From Accumulibacter sp. (lineage in GTDB: Bacteria; Pseudomonadota; Gammaproteobacteria; Burkholderiales; Rhodocyclaceae): a DNA stretch of 39,417 bases. Below are positions 21,829 to 31,739 of the stretch, piece by piece. The stretch lies in assembly GCF_023806635.1 (NCBI RefSeq), contig NZ_JAMTDQ010000007.1:1-39417 (forward strand), in the 5' to 3' direction. The position numbers and the translations under genes were made by a program. The notes beneath the pieces were generated by a model. The model ran no database searches. It was not told the DNA's origin and was given only the letters and a program-made list of their open reading frames with translations. Position 1 is the first letter of the stretch; each line of letters begins with the position of its first letter.

Positions 21829-22104
21829 CGGGCGTCTCCTGTTGTGTGGACAAGGCATCGGCACTCTTCTGCTCCGGCAGGCAGATGTCGCGGCGCCGCT
21901 CGATCGGGCGGCATCCTGGCCGGGGACGGTCGGCAAGCCGCCGTTGGCGACGAACAGGCTGCTGCAGGCCAGGTCGCCGACTCTACACCAACTCTCGGGG
22001 ACAGCGAGCATGCTGGCCCATTGGCAGCCACGCTGGACCAGCTGTGGCTCGCCGCCCGCTCCCTCGGCGCCGACCGGGTGGGCGACGGCGAGGGCTCATG
22101 CACC

Positions 22105-22542
22105 TCATTGCTTCGAAGCGCTGCTGGCGTTGCTCGTGCTCTGATCGTTCCTGTTGGACATCACCACCCCGGTCACCACCGCGCCGACGGCGGCTCCGAC
22201 CAATGCCGCGCCGATCTTGTTGTCGTGATCGTCATCGTCGTCGTAGTACCGGGCGCGATAGCGGTCAGCATAGCCGTCCCGATAGTCGCCGCGGTAATAG
22301 TCGCGCCGGTACTCGCGGTGGTGCTGGACCGCCGCGCCGGCGACGAATGCGCGCCGCTCGCGCTCGTGCTGTCGCAGATCGCGGTCCACGGCCGCGGCGC
22401 GCAGCACCTGGCCATCGTGCCGTCTGAGTTCATGCCGATATCGGTCACCCGCCATGACATCGGGTGCGCCGACGGTGCCGGCGCCGAGCAGGAACACGGC
22501 TGCCGCCATGGCGGACAGAAACCTCGAGACTCTTGCGTTCAT
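22105..22542 (-). CDS. Small exported protein with glycine zipper
   Basis: A 145-aa protein I cannot assign to a named family. A signal peptide is clear (about residues 1-31, FLSAMAAAVFLLGAG, ending PDVMA). The mature part is Arg, Tyr and Asp rich (HREYRRDYYRGDYRDGYADR, then DDDDDHDN). It finishes with a glycine-zipper helix GAALVGAAVGAVVTGVV and a Ser/Asn tail. The ATG at 22542 has AAGGAG eight bases upstream. It is the last of six small exported proteins on this strand and follows the HdeA-like gene by 35 bases. The 275 bases between it and the permease hold no supported gene. Confidence 0.72.
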   Translation of the reverse strand: MNARVSRFLSAMAAAVFLLGAGTVGAPDVMAGDRYRHELRRHDGQVLRAAAVDRDLRQHERERRAFVAGAAVQHHREYRRDYYRGDYRDGYADRYRARYYDDDDDHDNKIGAALVGAAVGAVVTGVVMSNRNDQSTSNASSASKQ

Positions 22543-22577
22543 CGTTCTATCTCCTTGAGCAGACGCTGCACTGGCGA

Positions 22578-22955
22578 CTAGCGCATGTCCTTGACGGCGT
22601 CGAGGAAGAGCTTGGAATCGTTGCCCTTGCACGTATTGAACATGACGCCGACCAGTTGCATCACACCCTTCTCGTCGAAAGGGTAACGCCTGGCGTCGAT
22701 GCCATCGCGGCCGTTCAGGTAGCCATGTGTCCAGGCCACGTAGGCAAAGGCCCGGTCCTGCGCGCCCTTGAGCATCTTCTTGTCCTTGTTCAGCTTGGGG
22801 TCGGCCGCGGCGAAGATGTCGAGGAGATCGCCGCAGGTGGTGGTCGCGAACGGGATGCTCTTGGGCTTCTTGGCGCCACCGGCCTCGCTGGCGGCAAACG
22901 CCGGAGGAAGGAGGCAGAGGGCGAGCAGGCAACCGGCAACAAGCTTTTTCTTCAT
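22578..22955 (-). CDS. HdeA-like small periplasmic protein
   Basis: A 125-aa protein with a signal peptide (MKKKLVAGCLLALCLLPPAFA). The mature part has two cysteines, in TTCGDLLDIF and MFNTCKGN, that can form one disulfide around a helical core with YVAWTHGYLNG. The cysteine spacing and helix pattern resemble HdeA/HdeB acid-stress chaperones and the related Rap1a-type fold. This is a judgement by eye. The ATG at 22955 with AAGGA six bases before it is preferred to an in-frame upstream start that lacks a signal peptide. Confidence 0.65.
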   Translation of the reverse strand: MKKKLVAGCLLALCLLPPAFAASEAGGAKKPKSIPFATTTCGDLLDIFAAADPKLNKDKKMLKGAQDRAFAYVAWTHGYLNGRDGIDARRYPFDEKGVMQLVGVMFNTCKGNDSKLFLDAVKDMR

Positions 22956-23195
22956 GGGTGGTCCTTTGCAGATGGATGGTGATGTATGCGGCGCATTCTG
23001 GAACTCGAAGAGCAAGGCGGAATTCCGGGAAAGTGAAGCCGGGCAGGCAGCTCAACCCGGTCCGGCGTTCGCGAGACGGCGGGGCAGACGGGAGAACAGC
23101 GCAAGGCGCCGCTGGCAGACGTTCGATGGCAGCAATCCGGCGCCGCCGCGTGCAGCATCGCGAATCGTTTCACCCGACGGTCGCTCGCTTGCAGC

Positions 23196-23666
23196 TCAGT
23201 CGGCGACGATCTTGCCGGTGGTCCTGGCGTCGGAATCGCACCAGGTGTCTTCGCCCTTGAGGCGGCGATCGCCCTGGATGGTGTAGGTGATGAAGCCCTG
23301 CTTGAATACCAGCGCGCCGTCGCTGCGCCTGGCCTTGACTGCCTTGCCATTGACCTTGACGTGTTCCCTGTTGTCGATGTGGATTTTCGCCACCGTATCG
23401 CCGCTGGGGCCAACCGCCAGCCAGTTGCCGGCATAGGGCGACTGGCTGGCCTGTGCGCCCTGTCCGGCGTTCCCGCCGGGCGCCTCGGTGACGAAGCCGG
23501 CCTTGGCGTTTTCCGCCCTGGTCTTGTTGATGTCACAGCCCTGCAACTCGCTCACTTGCGTGCAACCGGAGCGTTCCAGCTTCTGGCGGTACTTTGCGTC
23601 GATGGCGAAAGCCGGCGCCTGCATCAGCAGGCCGAGCGCGGCGGCCAGTGGCCAACTCTTCTTCAT
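23196..23666 (-). CDS. Exported protein of unknown function
   Basis: A 156-aa protein with a signal peptide (MKKSWPLAAALGLLMQAPAFA). The mature start IDAKYRQKLERSGCTQVSEL, with a second cysteine soon after (QGCDINKTRAENAK), looks like a small conserved disulfide module. A Gly/Gln-rich linker follows, then a beta-type domain (WLAVGPSGDTVAKIHIDN to DTWCDSDARTTGKIV). I do not recognise a family. A TTG at 23675 in frame has AAGGAG six bases upstream, a better ribosome binding site than the ATG at 23666 has. Protein starts differ by only three residues. Confidence 0.68.
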   Translation of the reverse strand: MKKSWPLAAALGLLMQAPAFAIDAKYRQKLERSGCTQVSELQGCDINKTRAENAKAGFVTEAPGGNAGQGAQASQSPYAGNWLAVGPSGDTVAKIHIDNREHVKVNGKAVKARRSDGALVFKQGFITYTIQGDRRLKGEDTWCDSDARTTGKIVAD

Positions 23667-23760
23667 CTTCTTCAATATGGTCTCCTTGTGGTCCACGGCC
23701 GTCTCCGCGGCATCGGCAGCAGCCTGGGTGCACGGGTCATTCGGTGGCGTCGACCGATTC

Positions 23761-23976
23761 CTACTTGGCAGGCTCCGGCTGTGGCACCGGGCAGGTGATC
23801 ATTTGTGAGGTATCAACGCAGACATTCCTGACGGATCCGTCAGACATCGGTCGTGAGCGGCAGTTGAGCGCTCCTTCGCAGTCCTTGTGCGCCCAGCACT
23901 CTTCGCACAACTTCTTGGGATTGCTGCAGCCGGCAAGCGTCAGTCCCAATAGCAAAGCGAGCAACATTTTCGTCAT
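23761..23976 (-). CDS. Small cysteine-rich lipoprotein
   Basis: A 71-aa protein. The signal peptide ends in a lipobox LAGC, so Cys17 would be lipidated after cleavage. The mature part has six further cysteines (KKLCEECWAHKDCEGALNC, then VRNVCVD and MITCPVP) and probably three disulfides. The ATG at 23976 has GGAGGA six bases upstream. The function is unknown. It belongs to the run of six exported small proteins and lies 94 bases from its downstream neighbour. Confidence 0.7.
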   Translation of the reverse strand: MTKMLLALLLGLTLAGCSNPKKLCEECWAHKDCEGALNCRSRPMSDGSVRNVCVDTSQMITCPVPQPEPAK

Positions 23977-24090
23977 TTCATTCCTCCATTGATCTGCGTT
24001 CATGAATCGCGACTCAGAACCGTGCGTGGTCAGGTACCCAGGACAAAAGTGGTGCTTCCCTCAACCGCCGTCCGGGGAAAGCCCCAGGGT

Positions 24091-24118
24091 AGCTGGTGGC
24101 CAGGCCTGGCCGCCAGCT
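24091..24118. repeat. Near-perfect 28-bp palindrome between two small genes
   Basis: AGCTGGTGGCCAGG (24091-24104) is followed at once by its reverse complement with one T-G wobble, CCTGGCCGCCAGCT (24105-24118). On the minus strand it starts eight bases after the stop of the 59-aa lipoprotein gene. There is no T-run after it, so it may be a factor-assisted terminator, an mRNA-stabilising hairpin or a protein site. A smaller GGGG-AAAG-CCCC hairpin is next to it (24074-24085). Confidence 0.6.
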
Positions 24119-24126
24119 GGCGATGC

Positions 24127-24306
24127 TCAGTGGTGCAGGTCTACCATCATGCCGATGCCACCACCGATCAGCGCGCCAGTGGTGCCATCGCCACCGCTCG
24201 CCTTGCCGATTCCCGCTCCGACCATGCTGCCGGCGGCGGTGTAGCAGGCAGTGCTCACCATGGCCACCACCAACATGGCGGCGACGACTTTCAGTTTCCG
24301 TCCCAT
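24127..24306 (-). CDS. 59-aa lipoprotein with glycine zipper
   Basis: A very short gene easily missed by length cut-offs. It encodes MGRKLKVVAAMLVVAMVSTAC, then YTAAGSMVGAGIGKASGGD and GTTGALIGGGIGMMVDLHH. STAC at residues 18-21 is a plausible lipobox (Cys21). The mature part is two short glycine-zipper stretches. AAAGG lies eight bases before the ATG at 24306. Glycine-zipper lipoproteins often insert in the outer membrane. It lies 13 bases after the next upstream gene ends, so the two are probably cotranscribed. Confidence 0.68.
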   Translation of the reverse strand: MGRKLKVVAAMLVVAMVSTACYTAAGSMVGAGIGKASGGDGTTGALIGGGIGMMVDLHH

Positions 24307-24319
24307 ATCCGTTGCCTTT

Positions 24320-24706
24320 CTAGGGTTGCTTCTTGACGATGTTGCGCCAGACGACGATCATCACCGGCGTCGAAAGTCTGGACGGATTCGCCTCGTACCA
24401 GCTCGTGATGCGCGCCTCGAACTCGCCCGGCTTGACCGTCTCGGTGGCCTTCATGATGCCCTCGCTGACCGGCGGGATCTTCTGGTTGGTGCCCTTGGCG
24501 TAGGCGCCCTCGGCCATGATCATGTTGGCGACGCCCTTCAGGAAAGCCATCCGTTCCGATGCCGCAGAGTTCATCCAGTCGTTGCCGGTCACCACCAGGG
24601 GATTCGTCGCTTCCGGCCGCAGGGCGTTGGACTGCTGTGCCAGGGCCGGCGTTGCAGCTGCAGCGATGCACGCTGCCGCCAGCCAATATTTCCACAACAT
24701 TGTCAT
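24320..24706 (-). CDS. Exported protein of unknown function downstream of the 82-bp block
   Basis: A 128-aa protein with a signal peptide (MTMLWKYWLAAACIAAAA, ending TPALA). The mature part has no cysteine and is helical, with DWMNSAASERMAFLKGVANM as its most family-like stretch. The KGVANMI element resembles the YVAWTHGYLNG helix of the HdeA-like neighbour in placement, but no relationship can be claimed. The ATG at 24706 has AAGGGA five bases before it. The gene is first in the run of six, and its upstream region carries copy A of the duplicated regulatory block. Function unknown. Confidence 0.7.
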   Translation of the reverse strand: MTMLWKYWLAAACIAAAATPALAQQSNALRPEATNPLVVTGNDWMNSAASERMAFLKGVANMIMAEGAYAKGTNQKIPPVSEGIMKATETVKPGEFEARITSWYEANPSRLSTPVMIVVWRNIVKKQP

Positions 24707-25149
24707 GGTTTTCCCTTCATCAGATGAAGATCGTGTCACCCGTACGAACTCTCCAGCGCGTCCGGAGAGGCGACGGCAACACGCCCGCTGCGGCTCGCTG
24801 CGAGGACAGAAGTCCCGGACAGGCTCGCGACGCGAGACTGAGTGCGGCCGCAATAGGGGCCGATTCTAGCGACGCCTGGCGTGCCCGAACAGTCAGGCAT
24901 CGCCTGTCAGGAATGCCCCGACAGGGGCCAGAATGGCGTGGCGCGCCCGGCTCGTGAACCCTGCTGGCGATCAACGCCCCGAGGGCGTCAACCGGCTCGC
25001 CGATCCCCGGGGGAATTGAAGTTCTCCCGGACACGCCGGCACGCTGGGTGCTCGAGTCGAGTGGGTCGTCCCGTCGACGTCGCTCTTCGGTGAATGTGGC
25101 CTCGGGGACTCGCTGAGGTCGCTGCCGTACGCATTGCCGACACACCAAC
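24707..25149. other. Intergenic region with regulatory block A
   Basis: About 440 bases without a supported gene. Open frames here on both strands lack ribosome binding sites and recognisable protein features. The only structure I can support is the 82-bp block at 24865-24946, whose -10-like box points towards the minus-strand gene at 24706. The remainder up to the terminator at 25150 shows nothing recognisable. Confidence 0.6.
24863..24946 (-). promoter_or_regulatory. Regulatory block, copy A (promoter-like, 82-bp repeat)
   Basis: Positions 24865-24946 align without gaps to 27250-27331 at 63 of 82 bases (77 %, counted by hand). Read on the minus strand, the block holds CCTGACAGG (itself palindromic), then GCCTGAC, so that CCTGAC is repeated at a 14-base step. 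It then runs GCCAGGCG and ends in TAGAAT (24863-24868), a good -10 box. Similarity stops at the -10 box. The start site would be near 24856, about 150 bases before the exported-protein gene at 24706. No proper -35 is present, which suggests an activator-dependent promoter. Confidence 0.55.
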
Positions 25150-25177
25150 GAAAAAGGGCCGCCCCGAGGGCGGCCCC
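25150..25177 (-). terminator. Terminator of the PEP-CTERM gene
   Basis: On the minus strand GGGGCCGCC and GGCGGCCC form a GC-rich stem around a short CTCGG-type loop, followed by TTTTT (the plus strand reads AAAAAGGGCCGCCCC then GAGGGCGGCCCC). It lies 25 bases after the stop of the PEP-CTERM gene and fits an intrinsic terminator. Confidence 0.88.
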
Positions 25178-25201
25178 GTATGGCCAGGGCGATCCGGAGA
25201 A

Positions 25202-25897
25202 TCAGGCCTTCTCCGCGCGACGCGCGCCGACCAAGCCCACCAGGCCGAGGCCGACGAGCGCCAGCGAGGCCGGTTCCGGCACCTCGTCAATGCGGCTGGT
25301 GGCAGTGTCGGTGTCCATTGTGAACTGGATCGACGCCGGTGCCGTGGCCCCGGAGAGTCCGCCTTGGATCGTCACGTTGACGCGGGTGTACAGGTCACCG
25401 TAGGGACTGGCCGGATCCCCAGCCACGGCGAGGATGTCCGTGTAGGCCGCAGCGAGCAGCAAGGTGCTCGTGTCGCTGAAGTCGGACCCGCTTGCCGAGC
25501 CCGGAGTGCCAGGGGAGGGCAAGGTGCGGTCGAACACCGTGCGGCCCGGCTGGCCGTCGAACTGGAGGAAGTTCAGCGGGGCCGCAAGCGAGGTCGTCAG
25601 CGTCCAGAGGCTGGAGAACGTGTCACCGCACATGGCGACCGACCAGCCGGTGCCCGCCGCCGAGCCGCAGTTCCCAATGCCTGCGGCCCAGGTCGCCGTC
25701 TCGGAGTAAGGGCTCAGGCCGCCAAAGGCGGCGGTGATCTGCATGCCCCCCATCTCATTGCCGTCCGTCTGGAAGCCCGTCAGCCCGGCCGTGGTGTGCA
25801 GCGTACCGTTCGACGCGGACACGGTCGTAGTCGCTTGCGCAAACGGAACCAAGCCAGCCGCAAGGGCCAGCGCCACGAGAGTTCTTTTCATTGCCAT
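25202..25897 (-). CDS. PEP-CTERM sorting-domain protein
   Basis: A 231-aa exported protein. The signal peptide is MAMKRTLVALALAAGLVPFAQA. The body is rich in Thr, Ser, Gly and Ala and looks like a beta-rich secreted domain with two cysteines (IGNCGSAAG and AMCGDTF). The C-terminus is a full PEP-CTERM signal: VPEPASLALVGLGLVGLVG followed by ARRAEKA. Such proteins are processed by an exosortase (EpsH/XrtA type) and usually belong to the exopolysaccharide or floc matrix. No exosortase is encoded in this window. The ATG at 25897 (GAGG nine bases upstream) is favoured over 25891. A sigma-54 promoter lies upstream. Confidence 0.88.
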   Translation of the reverse strand: MAMKRTLVALALAAGLVPFAQATTTVSASNGTLHTTAGLTGFQTDGNEMGGMQITAAFGGLSPYSETATWAAGIGNCGSAAGTGWSVAMCGDTFSSLWTLTTSLAAPLNFLQFDGQPGRTVFDRTLPSPGTPGSASGSDFSDTSTLLLAAAYTDILAVAGDPASPYGDLYTRVNVTIQGGLSGATAPASIQFTMDTDTATSRIDEVPEPASLALVGLGLVGLVGARRAEKA

Positions 25898-26029
25898 TTC
25901 TTGGTACCTCACTGAAATTGAGCCACGATAATCGGTTTCGTTCCAAGGGGACGCCACCCTTGACGGCTTGCCGACCCTTGCCACTTCGGTCGACTCAGCG
26001 CTGAAAGGCGAAGAGTCTGATGCGTTAAA

Positions 26030-26045
26030 GGCACATTCCGTGCCA
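26030..26045 (-). promoter_or_regulatory. Sigma-54 promoter of the PEP-CTERM gene
   Basis: On the minus strand the sequence is TGGCACGGAATGTGCC. Against the -24/-12 consensus TGGCACG-N4-TTGCW it matches all of TGGCACG and keeps T, G and C of TTGC at the right distance. The GG and GC dinucleotides are at the required spacing. The start site would be near 26019 and the leader about 120 bases. RpoN control of PEP-CTERM genes with the PrsK/PrsR pair has been described in floc-forming relatives such as Zoogloea, which supports this reading. Confidence 0.75.
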
Positions 26046-26077
26046 TGCTAAACATATGTCAATGAATCAATGGATTA

Positions 26078-26149
26078 CGGAAGCTCGCTGCATCCGGAAG
26101 CGACGCTCTGTAAGGCCGCTCGACGGAAGCTGTACGGAAGAGCCTTACA
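26078..26149 (-). repeat. Candidate enhancer: CGGAAG repeats and inverted repeat
   Basis: CGGAAGC occurs at 26078, 26095 and 26124, and CGGAAG at 26135. Around the last two stands a perfect 8-bp inverted repeat, TGTAAGGC (26109-26116) and GCCTTACA (26142-26149). Relative to the predicted sigma-54 start they lie between about -58 and -130, the usual place for the sites of a sigma-54 activator. A PrsR-type regulator is the obvious candidate, but none is encoded here. Confidence 0.45.
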
Positions 26150-26307
26150 TGCCTGATCAGGCCGTCGCCGTGCAGATGGTTCAGGTAGGCATCGTCGCGC
26201 GTGGCCGACCAGGGGTGCAGGCCGGTCATCGGCGGCTCGATCCGTTCGTCACCAATCCGGCAGCGGTCTCGGCCGCAACTCTCCGGCGCCCGCCTGCGAG
26301 TCCGCAC

Positions 26308-26949
26308 TCAGGCTTCCGGCGCGATCAGCCCGGCGCGGATGGCGAAACGGACGAGGCCCGCGACGTTGTCGATGCCGAGCTTGTCCATGAGCCGGCCACG
26401 GTAGGTCTCGACCGACTTGACGCCGAGGCCGAGGAGGTCGGCAATCTCCTGCGTCCGCCTGCCCTCGGCCAGCAGCCGCAGTACCTGCCGCTCGCGGGCG
26501 CTGAGCGCGTGCAGGTCGACCCTGGCGCTGCGCAGCGCCGCCGCCGATTCTCGACGCTGCAGGGTATTGCTCACGAACGCCGCACCGAGCAGGACCAGTT
26601 CGACGACTTCGACCAGGGCGGCGATCGGCTCGCTCTTCAGCACGTAGGCAGACGCCCCCGCCTCGCACGCGCGCTCCTGATAGCGTGCGTCGGCATACAT
26701 CGACAGGACGACGATCCTCGATTCCGGAGAAAGCTTCCTGATGCGCTGCGCCGCCTCAATGCCCGAAAGGCTCGGCATCTCGACGTCGAGCATCGCGATG
26801 CGCGGCCGCAACGTGCCCGCCAGCCGCACGGCCTCCTCGCCGTCAGCCGCCTCGGCCACCACTTCCCAGCCGTCGCGCTCGCGCAACAACGAGGCCAGGC
26901 CGTGCCGGAACACCGCGTGATCGTCAGCGATGAGGATCGTCGTCCTCAA
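26308..26949 (-). CDS. NarL/FixJ-type response regulator without adjacent kinase
   Basis: A 213-aa two-domain regulator. The receiver domain has the acidic pair Asp9-Asp10 (LIADDHAVF), the phosphoacceptor Asp55 (MLDVEMP) and Lys105 (YVLKSEP). The C-terminal LuxR-type helix-turn-helix starts near residue 150 (LSARERQVLRLLAEGRRTQE, then KSVETYRGRLMDKLG). It is the same length as, and clearly a paralogue of, the regulator at 27443, including the shared ending LVRFAIRAGLI. No kinase is attached, so it may share the neighbouring sensor. Copy B of the 82-bp block lies about 300 bases upstream. Confidence 0.92.
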   Translation of the reverse strand: MRTTILIADDHAVFRHGLASLLRERDGWEVVAEAADGEEAVRLAGTLRPRIAMLDVEMPSLSGIEAAQRIRKLSPESRIVVLSMYADARYQERACEAGASAYVLKSEPIAALVEVVELVLLGAAFVSNTLQRRESAAALRSARVDLHALSARERQVLRLLAEGRRTQEIADLLGLGVKSVETYRGRLMDKLGIDNVAGLVRFAIRAGLIAPEA

Positions 26950-27442
26950 GTCGTTCCTGTGCCCTCGCGATGACCCGGCGCTACAGTCGCCATACGCTCG
27001 ATTGACCTCGGCCGCGCCCCGGCGACGGGACTCCGCCTTGGGCCGCTGCGACGCTGATCATCCATGTTGCACTGGCCGCGCTGGATCGCGGCAGAAAGCC
27101 AGGCATTGTTGGCCCTCCGATCGGCTCGGTCAGTTTCGGCAGCAGGATTGGCGCATGCCGAACACAGGTTCCGTTCTCTGCTTTCAGGGGGACGACCCTG
27201 CCACGTTCCGCGCCGCGATCGACTGCCTCCACTTCTGGACTCGAGCGAGTCTACCGCCGCCTGGCAGGCACGAATAGTCAGGCGGTACCTGTCAGGCAGG
27301 CCACTACATCGGCCAGAATGAAGTGGCGTGCGACGCTTCGACCCGCGCCGGTCGAGGCGCTTCGCAAAGCCGTGCGGAAAGCGGAAAGTGCCGCTGGCAC
27401 GCGCCCAACGGCGGGCGCGAAGGACGCGGCGTCGGCCGCTGG
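26950..27442. other. Intergenic region with regulatory block B
   Basis: Some 490 bases between two regulator genes with no supported coding sequence. The only recognised element is block B (27248-27331). About 290 bases separate its predicted start site from the regulator at 26949, long enough for an untranslated leader or a small RNA. A weak hairpin GCCA-ACAATGCC-TGGC followed by TTTCT (minus strand, about 27095-27117) could end a short transcript, but it is not convincing. Confidence 0.5.
27248..27331 (-). promoter_or_regulatory. Regulatory block, copy B (promoter-like, 82-bp repeat)
   Basis: The partner of the block at 24865-24946, aligned without gaps. On the minus strand it reads CCTGACAGGTACCGCCTGAC, then TATTCGTGCCTGCCAGGCGG and ends with TAGACT (27248-27253) in the -10 position. 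The CCTGACAGG palindrome, the second CCTGAC 14 bases further on, the GCCAGGCG element and the distal GGCCAGAATG (plus strand) are all kept. It points to the orphan response regulator gene at 26949. Confidence 0.55.
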
Positions 27443-28084
27443 CTACGACTCCGGCGAGATCAGGCCGGCGCGAATTGCGAAGCGAACGAGTCCGGAAAGA
27501 TCGTTGATCCCGAGTTTTTGCTGCAGCCGGGCACGGTAGGTCTCGACAGTCTTGTGGCTGATCCCGAGCGTTTCGGCGATCACCACAGTCCGCTGGCCCT
27601 CGGCGAGCAACCGAAGCACCTCGCGTTCCCGTTCGCTCAACGCGTCCGCGTCGACCCGGGCGCTGCGCGCCATTGCGGCCGGTGCCGGCAGTTCCGGCAA
27701 GCCCGGCTCGTAGCCCCGGCCGCCGATGACCGCCTTGACAGCTTCAACCAGCTCGCCGATCGGCTGGCTCTTGCAGACGTAGGCCGATGCGCCCGCCCGG
27801 CGCATGCGCTGCTGGTAATGCGCACTCGAGTACATCGACAGCGCCACGATCTTCGTGCCGGGCGAGATCTCGCGAATCCGCTTCGCTGCGTCGATGCCGC
27901 CCATGCCGACCATCTCCACATCGAGGACGGCGACCGTTGGCTTGAGCAACGCGACGAGGTCGATGGCCTCCTCGCCGCTTCCGGCCTCCCCGACCACCTC
28001 CCAGCACGGCTGCTCCCGCAGTAGCGCCGCCAGCCCCTGGCGGAAGAGCACGTGGTCGTCGGCAAGGACGATGCTGATCGTCAT
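27443..28084 (-). CDS. NarL/FixJ-type response regulator coupled to the triple-domain sensor
   Basis: A 213-aa regulator with Asp9-Asp10 (VLADDHVLF), phosphoacceptor Asp55 (VLDVEMV) and Lys105 (YVCKSQP). The LuxR-type DNA-binding domain begins at LSEREREVLRLLAEGQRT and contains KTVETYRARLQQKLG. The ATG at 28084 overlaps the sensor kinase stop by four bases (ATGA), so the two are translated together and form a cognate pair. The open frame continues upstream across the kinase in another frame but has no meaning there. Confidence 0.93.
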   Translation of the reverse strand: MTISIVLADDHVLFRQGLAALLREQPCWEVVGEAGSGEEAIDLVALLKPTVAVLDVEMVGMGGIDAAKRIREISPGTKIVALSMYSSAHYQQRMRRAGASAYVCKSQPIGELVEAVKAVIGGRGYEPGLPELPAPAAMARSARVDADALSEREREVLRLLAEGQRTVVIAETLGISHKTVETYRARLQQKLGINDLSGLVRFAIRAGLISPES

Positions 28085-31000
28085 CGAGCGGCCTCGCCGC
28101 CCCTTGCCTGCAAAGAGTCCGCGGCTTGCATTGCGGGACCCGGGGCGGTCCCGGTCTGCTGCGCAACGGGCAGGTGGACCGTGACCCGGCTGCCGGCTGC
28201 CGTCGTTTCGATCGCCACTTCGCCGCCAAACAGCGTCACGCGCTCCCGGGCGCTGAACAACCCGAAGCCTTCCCGGCGCCGTCGCGCTCCGGACGGCTGC
28301 TCGAAGCCCTTGCCGTCGTCGGCGACGGTCAGGACGACATGGTGGCCGTCGGCGTCGAGCGTGATCGACGCCGTGTTGGCGGCTGCATGCTTCGCGACGT
28401 TGTAGACGAGCTCCCGGGCAACCTGAAACACCACGATCGCGAGTTCCTGCGGAAACTTCACCATGGGTGCGGCGTCCCGGAACGAAAAGGCGACGCCGAA
28501 GCGCTCCGTCGCGTGCGCCGCGAGCCATTCCAGCGCCGCCGCCAAGCCCTCGCGATACAGCAGCGGCGGACTGAGCTCGAACTGCAGCGTGTGCAGCTCG
28601 TCGAGCGCCTCGCGCATCAGGCCGAGGCCGTTGTCCAGGCGCGCGGCCAGCCCCGAATCGACTTCGCCGCTGGCGGCGCTGAACTGCAGCTGGGCCAGCG
28701 CCAGCTTCTGCATCGGGCTGTCGTGCAACTCGCCGGCAAGCCGCCGGCGCTCGCGCTCCTCGACCTGCGACAGGTCCCTGGCCAGCCGCTGCAGGCGCGT
28801 GTTCGCGCGGTTCAGACGGAGCGTGCGCTCGCCAAAGACGAGCAGCAGGATGAGCATGGCTCCGCCGGCGATCATCCACAGGATCGTGGTGTCGAAGCGG
28901 TGCTGATACTGGATCGAGATCCAGTCACGGTAGATGGCATCGCGCTCGGTGAGAGGGATCGCGTCGATGCCCTTCTGCAGGATCCCGGCGAGCATCGGCC
29001 AATCGCTGCGCACACCCATCGCGATCCGGTAGACGAAGGGCGTCTCGCCGGCGACCCGGATCTGGCTGAGACCCGACTGGCCGATGTAGTAGCTCGTGGT
29101 CACGAGGTTGCCGACAAAGGCATAGGCACGGCCATCCGTGATCGTCTTCAGGGCTGCTGGCGTGTCGGCGACCGGCAGCAGCTGCAGGTCGGGCCAGTTC
29201 TCGCGCAGCCATTCCTCGATGGCTTCCCCGCGCACGACGGACACAACCTTGCCGTTCAATCCTTCCGGCCCACCGATGTAGGTGACATCGGCCGCCGAGA
29301 AGATCGCTGCCGGGAACGACAGGTAGGGATCGGTGAAGCGGAGCTGCTGGCTTCGGGAAGGTGTCGACGCGATGGCAGCGAGCGCGTCTAGGCGCCCGTC
29401 TTGCAGCGCCTGCGTGGCCTCGGACCAGGAGAGGTCGGAACGGACGTCGAAGCGCACGCCCAGCGTCTTGCTCATGCGTTCGAGGTAGGCGAGCGACATT
29501 CCTCTGGCCGCGCCCGCTTCGTCGACGAACTCGACCGGAGCCCAGCGCGGGTCGATCCCGATGCGGATGAGGTCGCGGCCGGCAAGCCAGGCGCGCTCTT
29601 CGGCGCTGAGCCGCACCCGAACCGCCGCCACCCGGTTTGAATAGTCCGGCCCGAACCAACGCCGGTACATCTCCTCGAGCTCCGGCCTGGTTACCGCCGC
29701 CAGGCCCTTGTTCAGGATCGCAACGAGTTCCGGATGCTCCTTGTTGATCGACATGACCATGCTCGGGTCGATCTCGTGGATGGTCCGCGTCACGGCCATG
29801 CCGACGATGCCGTTGCTGGCCCGCCAGTACTCCAGCGAATAGGCAGCGACGACCGCGTCCAGATCGCCACGCAGGAGACGTCGGGCCAGCTCCGCGTAGC
29901 CGTCCACCGGGACTGCCGTGATCTCCGGATACCTCGCCAGGGCGCTGCTCTCGCGCAGCGTTCCCTTGAGATAACCCACCCGCTTGCCACGCAGGTCGTC
30001 GAGGGCAAGCGGGACCTTTCTCCTGTGCAGGTCATCGGTCCGCAGGTAGATGAACGCCGGCGAAGAATGAAAGACGTCCGTGAACAGGAAGTGTTTCCTG
30101 CGCTCGTCGAGCGGCGCGGTCAGCGTGAGGCCGTCGATTGCACCGGACTCGGCCTTCCTGACCATCTCGGGCCACGGGCCGACCTCGATTCGTACGTTGG
30201 TTCCGAGTTTGCGATTGACCAGGTCCAGGTAGTCGACCATGAACCCGGACAGGTTGCCGCGAGCATCCTTCATCACCGTCGCGGCCCAGTCCTCGCCGGC
30301 ACCGATGACGATGTCGGGACGGGCGGCGAGCCACGCTCGCTCCTCCCTGGTCAGCAGCTCGGCGTTGAACTCCCCGTGGTCCGCTGCCACGCGGCCCGGA
30401 GAGGCCGCGCCGAACCACCGCCGCTGAATCGACTCCAGTTCGCCCCGGGTGATGGCCGCAATGCCCTTGTTGAGGATGCCGACCAGTTCCGGCTCGTTCC
30501 GGTTGATCGACATGACCTGTCGCGCGTCGATCTCGTGGACGATCCGCGTGATCGCCATTCCGACGACCGCGTTGCTCACGCGCCATTGCTCGAACGCGTA
30601 CACGGCGACCACCGCATCGAGTTCCCTGCGCAGCAGTGCCTGGGCCAGCGTCGCGTAGCTCCCGAGCGGCACCGGTGTGATCTTCGGGTGCATTGCCAGG
30701 GCACGGCCGGTCCGCAGTGAGCCCTTCAGGTAGCCCACCCGCTTGCCCTGCAGACCAGCGAGGTCGGTCGGGGCCCCATCCTTGTGCAGGTCATCCGTTC
30801 GCAGATAGATGAAGTCGGGGGACTCGTGGAACACGTCGGTGAACAGGAAGTGTTTCTTCCTCTCCTCGAGCGGCGACGACACCGCCAGGCCATCGATCTT
30901 GCCGGCCTCGGCCTTGCTGACCATCTCGTGCCACGGGCCGGCCTCGATGCGGATGCTGGTGCCCAGCTTGCGGTTCATCAGGTCGAGGTATTCGACAAGG

Positions 31001-31227
31001 GGCCCGGACAGCCCCCCCGCGGCATCCTTCCTCGCGAGGACGCCCCAGTCGTCCGCGGCGCCGAGGACGATCGGCGGACGGGCGGCCAGCCAGGCCCGCT
31101 CCGCCGGCGTCAGCAGGTCGGCAGACCCATCGGCGGCGGATGAACCGGCCGCAACGAGGAGTCCAAGGCAAAACACCGCGATCACGCGCAGCCATCGTGT
31201 CGCCGCGGAGCCCTGATGGCTTCGCAT
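28081..31227 (-). CDS. Sensor histidine kinase with three tandem periplasmic binding domains
   Basis: A 1048-aa hybrid of solute-binding and kinase domains. After a signal peptide or anchor (RWLRVIAVFCLGLLVAAG, residues 11-28) come three SBP_bac_3 domains that each open with ERAWLA: about 38-275, 291-528 and 540-780. A membrane helix follows (781-799). Then come a HisKA_3 dimerisation domain with the phosphorylated His835 in GELHDSP, and an HATPase domain (ELVYNVAKHAA, VADDGKGF). Domains 1 and 2 are 66 % identical over 236 aligned residues; domain 3 is diverged and resembles ordinary amino-acid binding domains. BvgS and EvgS have two such domains. The start at 31227 is chosen for the signal peptide; a weak GCCGGG precedes it, and the frame stays open upstream. 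Confidence 0.88.
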   Translation of the reverse strand: MRSHQGSAATRWLRVIAVFCLGLLVAAGSSAADGSADLLTPAERAWLAARPPIVLGAADDWGVLARKDAAGGLSGPLVEYLDLMNRKLGTSIRIEAGPWHEMVSKAEAGKIDGLAVSSPLEERKKHFLFTDVFHESPDFIYLRTDDLHKDGAPTDLAGLQGKRVGYLKGSLRTGRALAMHPKITPVPLGSYATLAQALLRRELDAVVAVYAFEQWRVSNAVVGMAITRIVHEIDARQVMSINRNEPELVGILNKGIAAITRGELESIQRRWFGAASPGRVAADHGEFNAELLTREERAWLAARPDIVIGAGEDWAATVMKDARGNLSGFMVDYLDLVNRKLGTNVRIEVGPWPEMVRKAESGAIDGLTLTAPLDERRKHFLFTDVFHSSPAFIYLRTDDLHRRKVPLALDDLRGKRVGYLKGTLRESSALARYPEITAVPVDGYAELARRLLRGDLDAVVAAYSLEYWRASNGIVGMAVTRTIHEIDPSMVMSINKEHPELVAILNKGLAAVTRPELEEMYRRWFGPDYSNRVAAVRVRLSAEERAWLAGRDLIRIGIDPRWAPVEFVDEAGAARGMSLAYLERMSKTLGVRFDVRSDLSWSEATQALQDGRLDALAAIASTPSRSQQLRFTDPYLSFPAAIFSAADVTYIGGPEGLNGKVVSVVRGEAIEEWLRENWPDLQLLPVADTPAALKTITDGRAYAFVGNLVTTSYYIGQSGLSQIRVAGETPFVYRIAMGVRSDWPMLAGILQKGIDAIPLTERDAIYRDWISIQYQHRFDTTILWMIAGGAMLILLLVFGERTLRLNRANTRLQRLARDLSQVEERERRRLAGELHDSPMQKLALAQLQFSAASGEVDSGLAARLDNGLGLMREALDELHTLQFELSPPLLYREGLAAALEWLAAHATERFGVAFSFRDAAPMVKFPQELAIVVFQVARELVYNVAKHAAANTASITLDADGHHVVLTVADDGKGFEQPSGARRRREGFGLFSARERVTLFGGEVAIETTAAGSRVTVHLPVAQQTGTAPGPAMQAADSLQARGGEAAR

Positions 31228-31739
31228 CCCGGCACCGGCGTCTGATGAGAACTGCTTGATCGAGGGTGATCGCGGCCAGTGCGACACGGCGCTCCGCCGG
31301 ATCGGCAGGACGGGAGGTCCAACGCGGGCGCGGACCTGGCGGCCAGGGAAGCCGACTGTTCCGGTAACGCAGCAGTTGAAGCTTTGCCGGCTCGTGCGTC
31401 CGGCAAGATCGCACGCAGCCATGCCCTCGTCCAGGCGATTCGTGATCGTAGTCGTGATGGTGGAACTCCCGATCGCCATGCCGGTTGCGTTGTCGGTTCG
31501 TTGCTTGTGCATGTTGTACGGAGCCGCCAGCCTTGGTCAACTGTTTTGTCGCATGAAGTGCTGGCGGAATGCACAGTCTTCCATGCAGATGACGGCGGAC
31601 CGGTCATCCCGCGTGAAGCAACCATCGGGACGCGCACAAGGCCGTCGCGCATGATCTGGCCGAAGCCCGGGAGCGGTGTCTCGCCTCTCCTCAAGCCGAG
31701 GACGGTGGAAAAAAGCTTGCATTCCCTGCGCTCACGCCC
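31228..31739. other. Intergenic region between the sensor kinase and psrA
   Basis: About 510 bases between divergent genes. The frame of the sensor stays open over its first 285 bases, but the translated part has neither signal peptide nor domain character. I see no gene or repeat in it. The right end leads into the psrA promoter. Confidence 0.55.

Follow-up and report, generated by a model that had tools for sequence, protein, structure and literature searches.

A duplicated non-coding block, putatively a promoter region, at a kinase and NarL-type regulator locus of Accumulibacter sp.

The contig NZ_JAMTDQ010000007.1 of Accumulibacter sp. (NCBI RefSeq assembly GCF_023806635.1), of which positions 1 to 39,417 of the forward strand were analysed (39,417 nucleotides, from now on referred to as the window), carries a sensor histidine kinase gene, two response regulator genes (RR2 and RR1) and a gene for a small exported protein (EXP), and a similar non-coding block is located both between RR2 and RR1 (copy B) and before EXP (copy A). 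This raises the question whether the copies resemble each other as promoters answering to one of the regulators or as remains of the way in which the locus arose. As an element the block is nothing out of the ordinary, but its history can be read unusually well; the alignments show it to be what both places have kept of a local duplication, which covered a regulator gene and the putative promoter region downstream of it.

Two copies of the block and a regulator gene stub

Alignment of copy A (24865-24946) with copy B (27250-27331) on the minus strand showed 63 identical bases out of 82 without gaps, a score that a shuffled copy equalled in 0 of 400 cases, and when the region 22000-31600 was compared with itself by blastn the match was slightly longer (86 bp, 76.7% identity, E 1e-12, Table 1). 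The gap-free duplication proposed in the earlier note is thereby borne out, as is its position before minus-strand genes, EXP for copy A and RR1 for copy B. The parts that the note had listed as shared, CCTGACAGG followed by a second CCTGAC at a 14-base step, GCCAGGCG and a -10-like TAGAMT box, could all be identified in both copies, but the box does not end the similarity as had been suggested, the identity continuing past it to TAGANTCG (24861 in copy A, 27246 in copy B). Among the 82-base direct matches in the window the A/B pair is tied second, with an internal repeat of the kinase gene (68) ranked above it and the two regulator genes, which also give 63 identities, level with it. Inside the 82 bp neither a runs test (z -1.0) nor the longest run (p 0.83) points to significant clustering of the identities, and the four runs of at least 8 identical bases (p 0.06) are not significant alone.

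The flanks of the two copies had been described as different. This did not hold for copy A, where 47 of the 61 bases fused to its upstream edge are identical to a segment within the RR2 gene (blastn, E 3e-7); read in frame, these 61 bases give IGEPVDALGALIASRVHEPG where RR2 has IGELVEAVKAVIGGRGYEPG. None of 2000 shuffles of 24947-25201 equalled the score of this match, and when 642-base tiles from both strands of the window were scored, values above 30 were found only for tiles overlapping the stretch itself and for two RR2 tiles. What precedes copy A is therefore a remnant (stub) of a NarL-type regulator gene, just as the whole RR2 gene precedes copy B, and about 370 bases are absent between the stub and the copy A block.

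RR1 and RR2 are 58% identical in amino acid sequence (427 of 638 nucleotides). The best other match had 47% identity when 399 genomes of the order were surveyed with 7 candidates per genome scored (E 1e-42 passed by 20 of the 399, the own genome counted) and 43% in 28 genomes of the genus (E 1e-30 passed by 19, the own genome again counted).

Copies in the genome and in related genomes

In the 4.47-Mb genome the shared core, with at most 3 mismatches, was found only in copies A and B, and a shorter core occurred in one of 25 genomes searched, namely the own genome. A looser pattern (at most 3 mismatches over 18 bases) matched 21 sites in the genome, A and B among them, and its reversed control matched 2; 18 of the 19 additional matches lie inside open frames of at least 364 codons, the nineteenth being locus L061, so the excess was read as coding bias. 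A DNA search of 40 relatives with copy A recovered copy A alone, a weak negative because the search missed copy B as well. In a contig collection, from which near-identical records may be left out, the exact core had 0 matches and a kinase search gave 11 pattern stretches, 0 of them confirmed, while a plasmid collection held no match to EXP and a single regulator-gene match of 104 bases. In the accessible parts of the literature, a search for CCTGACAGG in connection with promoter and response regulator gave only a match concerning rice. The motif CCTGR may be present in UhpA sites, which is not used as support here.

A profile built from A and B alone gave matches at E 1 in 27 of the 28 genus genomes, nearly all of them weak. 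The sole strong match beyond A and B (34 bits, E 1.3e-7, the next one having E 0.004) was found in genome G023 (G023:C98:10778-10841), directly upstream of an EXP ortholog with 53% identity and in neighbouring DNA that is 87.5-89% identical, i.e. at the same locus. This block can be aligned with copy A (50 of 77), unlike its flanks and leader, and tblastn at E 0.01 detected no relatives of the kinase or the regulators on the G023 contig of 13.3 kb. The G023 ortholog of EXP has an AAGGAGG ribosome site without an obvious ATG, GTG or TTG just after it (L108, 6700-6760).

When the G023 sequence was included, the profile also matched a second genus genome, G015 (G015:C1:1367253-1367323, 26.0 bits, E 4.4e-5), the other genus matches listed at E 0.05 having at most 17.3 bits. 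Here a broken kinase gene, a broken regulator gene, the block and a broken homolog of E131, another exported-protein gene of the present locus, stand in the syntenic place (L137, 7420-8732), with 5.6 kb of 91% identical DNA downstream of the block. The broken regulator is 63% identical to RR2 over 89 residues before the frame changes, its DNA-binding part was not found, and the block contains CAGACT where copy B has TAGACT. In the order survey, with strict filters, E 0.001 was passed by 2 of the 399 genomes, the own genome and G158, the latter with a match of 25.7 bits inside an unrelated TctC-like receptor gene that was judged to be chance; a profile match in G000:C8 was judged likewise and lies inside a cytochrome c-type gene (both genes named from their translations). 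The surveys scored 150 (genus) and 11 (order) first-look candidates per genome, so weak copies could be missed.

The upstream flank and the leader of copy B match G015 at 93 of 126 and 67 of 100 positions (0 of 400 shuffles each), and the flanks of copy A showed no match to G015 except the stub, which agrees with the G015 regulator at 40 of 48 positions and with RR2 at 36 of 48, too few bases to order the events. The picture of a block conserved between unrelated flanks is consequently not supported, since copy A adjoins the stub and the flanks of copy B agree with G015 no less well than the block. Because of these two observations, much of the match can be put down to common descent of a larger segment.

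Distant relatives of EXP occur in 16 further genomes of the genus. Of the 23 sources to which the block profile was applied, 19 were loci around these relatives, covering all 16 genomes, and gave no match at E 1; left out of the run were L122-L124 (the same places as L011-L013), L110 and L111. In two of the loci, L005 and L009, a glycine-zipper gene follows the distant EXP relative, as it does here, the block being absent by profile search.

Promoter layout, control and rival explanations

Comparison of A, B and G023 showed that the two CCTGAC half-sites are better conserved than their surroundings, the invariant columns being 11 of 12 in the half-sites, 17 of 37 in the remainder of the 55-column core and 5 of 6 in the -10 box. 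With G015 added the figures are 10 of 12, 12 of 37 and 4 of 6, and the difference between half-sites and rest had permutation p values of 0.011 (A, B and G023) and 0.006 (with G015). Judged by these columns the CCTGAC pair is the best-kept part of the block. The spacing from half-site to -10 box is identical in A, B and G023 (23 bases) which, together with a predicted start about seven bases after the box, would place the repeats at about -55/-41. The sigma-70 scan called no site and no -35 at either block, in line with the note, in which no good -35 had been seen either.

The duplication, the stub, the synteny and the better conservation of the CCTGAC pair are shown by the sequences themselves, and from this layout we infer promoter activity, start sites and binding of RR2 or RR1. 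That the block is a promoter region we consider quite likely; whether it is under the control of RR2 or RR1 is evenly balanced. In the history proposed here the ancestral order would have been kinase, NarL-type regulator, block and a small exported-protein operon, and a local duplication of the regulator gene with the block region left two copies in this genome. Copy B has kept its original upstream neighbour RR2 and its leader, now preceding the paralog RR1, and copy A precedes EXP, retaining the regulator-gene stub upstream. Each copy would most likely work as a sigma-70 promoter that has a fair -10 but lacks a -35 and is activated by way of the directly repeated CCTGAC, and the kinase, via RR2, would turn on both the exported-protein operon and RR1 in a feed-forward manner. 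In G023 the kinase/regulator pair would have been lost or never present at the block, and in G015 the whole locus is presumably being lost. Taken as a whole, this reading of a promoter region duplicated together with a regulator, activated through CCTGAC and serving the kinase and RR2 to drive the EXP operon and RR1, has in our opinion about an even chance of being correct. More tentatively, and with some doubt, the locus could be seen as a fossil of rewiring, in which the duplication placed a response regulator paralog behind a target promoter of its own system, giving a feed-forward arrangement whose scar, the regulator-gene stub fused to the target promoter, is still visible, as are un-rewired and decayed states in sister species, with CCTGAC as the site of an undescribed NarL-family regulator.

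A number of observations weigh against the proposed reading. Stub and RR2 share the same level of identity as the two blocks (77% in both cases), and the A/B match need therefore not mean constraint. Since the half-sites were picked out in A and B, only G023 and G015 are independent in the half-site test. The score of the G015 block is no better than that of the match in G158 and for this reason proves little by itself; it is by its position that the block in G015 is recognised. Between copy B and G015 the block agrees at 42 of 68 positions with 14 gapped columns, or at 46 of 71 by profile alignment, and the flanks are at least as conserved. Copy B lies about 300 bases away from RR1, and the leaders of A and B could not be aligned (141 of 400 shuffles equally good). 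In G023, finally, the block is found with RR1-like proteins that are at best 39% and 37% identical.

This last finding, together with the G023 contig lacking any detected kinase or regulator relative, would be expected if the promoter is real but its activator is another, more widely kept reader of CCTGAC, RR1 and RR2 being merely copied neighbours. However, the block is situated directly behind a kinase-regulator pair both in G015, where block and regulator are decayed, and at copy B; the G023 genome has a completeness of 93%, and in the search at E 1e-30 a regulator in broken form would go unnoticed, as happened with that of G015; we regard a different activator as rather unlikely. It is improbable that one or both copies are inert relics and the match a neutral carry-over from the duplicated segment, an explanation that would fit the equally similar dead regulator stub beside copy A, the lack of significant clustering among the identities and the well conserved flanks between copy B and G015, but not the better kept half-sites or the block of G023, which remains alignable where flanks and leader do not. 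A dispersed or mobile repeat, suggested by two similar non-coding copies 2.4 kb apart, is very improbable, as no additional strong copy at any other place was found in the genome, nearly all loose matches lie in long open frames and the copies in relatives are syntenic; with two strong genome copies, a third before the G023 ortholog of EXP and a decayed syntenic fourth in G015, the preference of the earlier note for a promoter over a mobile repeat is supported. A structured RNA or attenuator is just as hard to credit: A and B fold better than shuffles on both strands (minus strand, z -3.2 for A and -2.2 for B; plus strand, -2.4 and -3.1), but their predicted folds differ, the G023 copy has no advantage over its shuffles (z +0.7) and the region 22000-31600 had no Rfam match at E 0.1.

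The promoter reading has parallels in characterised systems. According to the available part of the report on RpuS/RpuR in Sinorhizobium fredii (PMC9100948), the mctP promoter contains an imperfect direct repeat from -80 to -43 and a -10-like box with no -35 identified, its RpuR-dependent minimal form spans -82 to +1, and the repeat is required, activation having been tested. The present block resembles it as a predicted promoter near two-component genes with a direct repeat and a -10 without a -35, whereas repeat position and target differ and the block is read from its sequence. In the accessible text on the CrbR-dependent acs promoter of Pseudomonas fluorescens (PMC5715377) a LuxR-family site is placed at -52 to -36, upstream of an RpoD promoter; this is near where the CCTGAC pair is predicted to lie, but the CrbR site is an inverted repeat of another sequence. 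The best NCBIfam models for the kinase and the regulators are MctS and MctR (NF052443/NF052445), far under their cut-offs, with about 149 bits against 300 for MctR (RR1 148.7, RR2 148.6) and 120.2 against 700 for the kinase. Compared through models of the same database, the locus recalls EvgS/EvgA in its kinase with tandem periplasmic SBP-like sensors, its NarL-type regulator and an HdeA-like hint, but the cut-offs of EvgS (1995, kinase 55.6) and EvgA (251, regulators 109.3 and 98.7) were not reached, the kinase has HisKA_3 and no receiver or Hpt match, and the HdeA match is below cut-off.

Should the proposed reading be true, the locus would show how the duplication of a promoter gave a two-component system an additional regulator, other states being seen in sister species, and would provide CCTGAC-N8-CCTGAC as a candidate operator for a NarL-type regulator whose partner kinase has three sensors. 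The locus also calls for caution, as a conserved-looking non-coding island may derive from a duplicated segment with trimmed flanks and not from constraint on the island alone.

Genes of the locus

The features are collected in Table 1. Regulators of the NarL/LuxR type flank copy B, RR2 upstream and RR1 downstream. For the exported proteins only sub-threshold hints were obtained (Rap1a 0.086, Gly-zipper_YMGG 8e-4, HdeA 0.023 and 0.003), and single-sequence structure models were poor (mean predicted local distance difference test score 59 for EXP and 45 for E131).

Table 1. Positions of the block copies, their parts and the surrounding genes in the window
Feature	Position	Strand	Basis
Copy A of the block, before EXP	24861..24946	-	63/82 to copy B; blastn extent
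Copy A, first CCTGAC half-site	24906..24911	-	sequence reading
Copy A, second CCTGAC half-site	24892..24897	-	sequence reading
Copy A, -10-like TAGAAT	24863..24868	-	sequence reading; scan gives no -35
Copy B of the block, between RR2 and RR1	27246..27331	-	63/82 to copy A; blastn extent
Copy B, first CCTGAC half-site	27291..27296	-	sequence reading
Copy B, second CCTGAC half-site	27277..27282	-	sequence reading
Copy B, -10-like TAGACT	27248..27253	-	sequence reading; scan gives no -35
Stub of NarL-type regulator gene, fused to copy A upstream edge	24945..25005	-	47/61 to RR2 27701-27761; 40/48 to decayed G015 regulator
RR2, NarL-type response regulator, overlaps kinase gene end	27443..28084	-	Response_reg + GerE (Pfam)
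RR1, response regulator paralog behind copy B	26308..26949	-	Response_reg + GerE (Pfam); 58% amino acid identity to RR2
Sensor histidine kinase, three SBP_bac_3, HisKA_3, HATPase_c	28081..31512 (provisional start codon)	-	Pfam
EXP, small exported protein behind copy A	24320..24706	-	53% to G023 ortholog; sub-threshold Rap1a 0.086
Glycine-zipper protein downstream of EXP	24127..24306	-	Gly-zipper_YMGG E 8e-4, below its cut-off
E131, exported protein further along the same strand	22578..22955	-	sub-threshold HdeA 0.023; broken homolog follows G015 block

Between RR1 and copy A a PEP-CTERM gene is located (25202-25894), followed by a terminator-like hairpin, the scan finding 1 against a shuffle mean of 2.7 and hence no excess. 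About 135 bases before this gene, TGGCACGGAATGTGCC (26030-26045, minus strand) resembles the -24/-12 consensus of sigma-54 promoters. The gene product has a sub-threshold match to the floc-associated PepA (40 of 80 bits), and RpoN-dependent PEP-CTERM genes are reported in the literature (PMC9850573). In the sensor part of the kinase gene (29622-31122, minus strand) two of the three sensor domains form a tandem DNA repeat with 72.7% identity over 743 columns, so the receptor probably grew by internal duplication.

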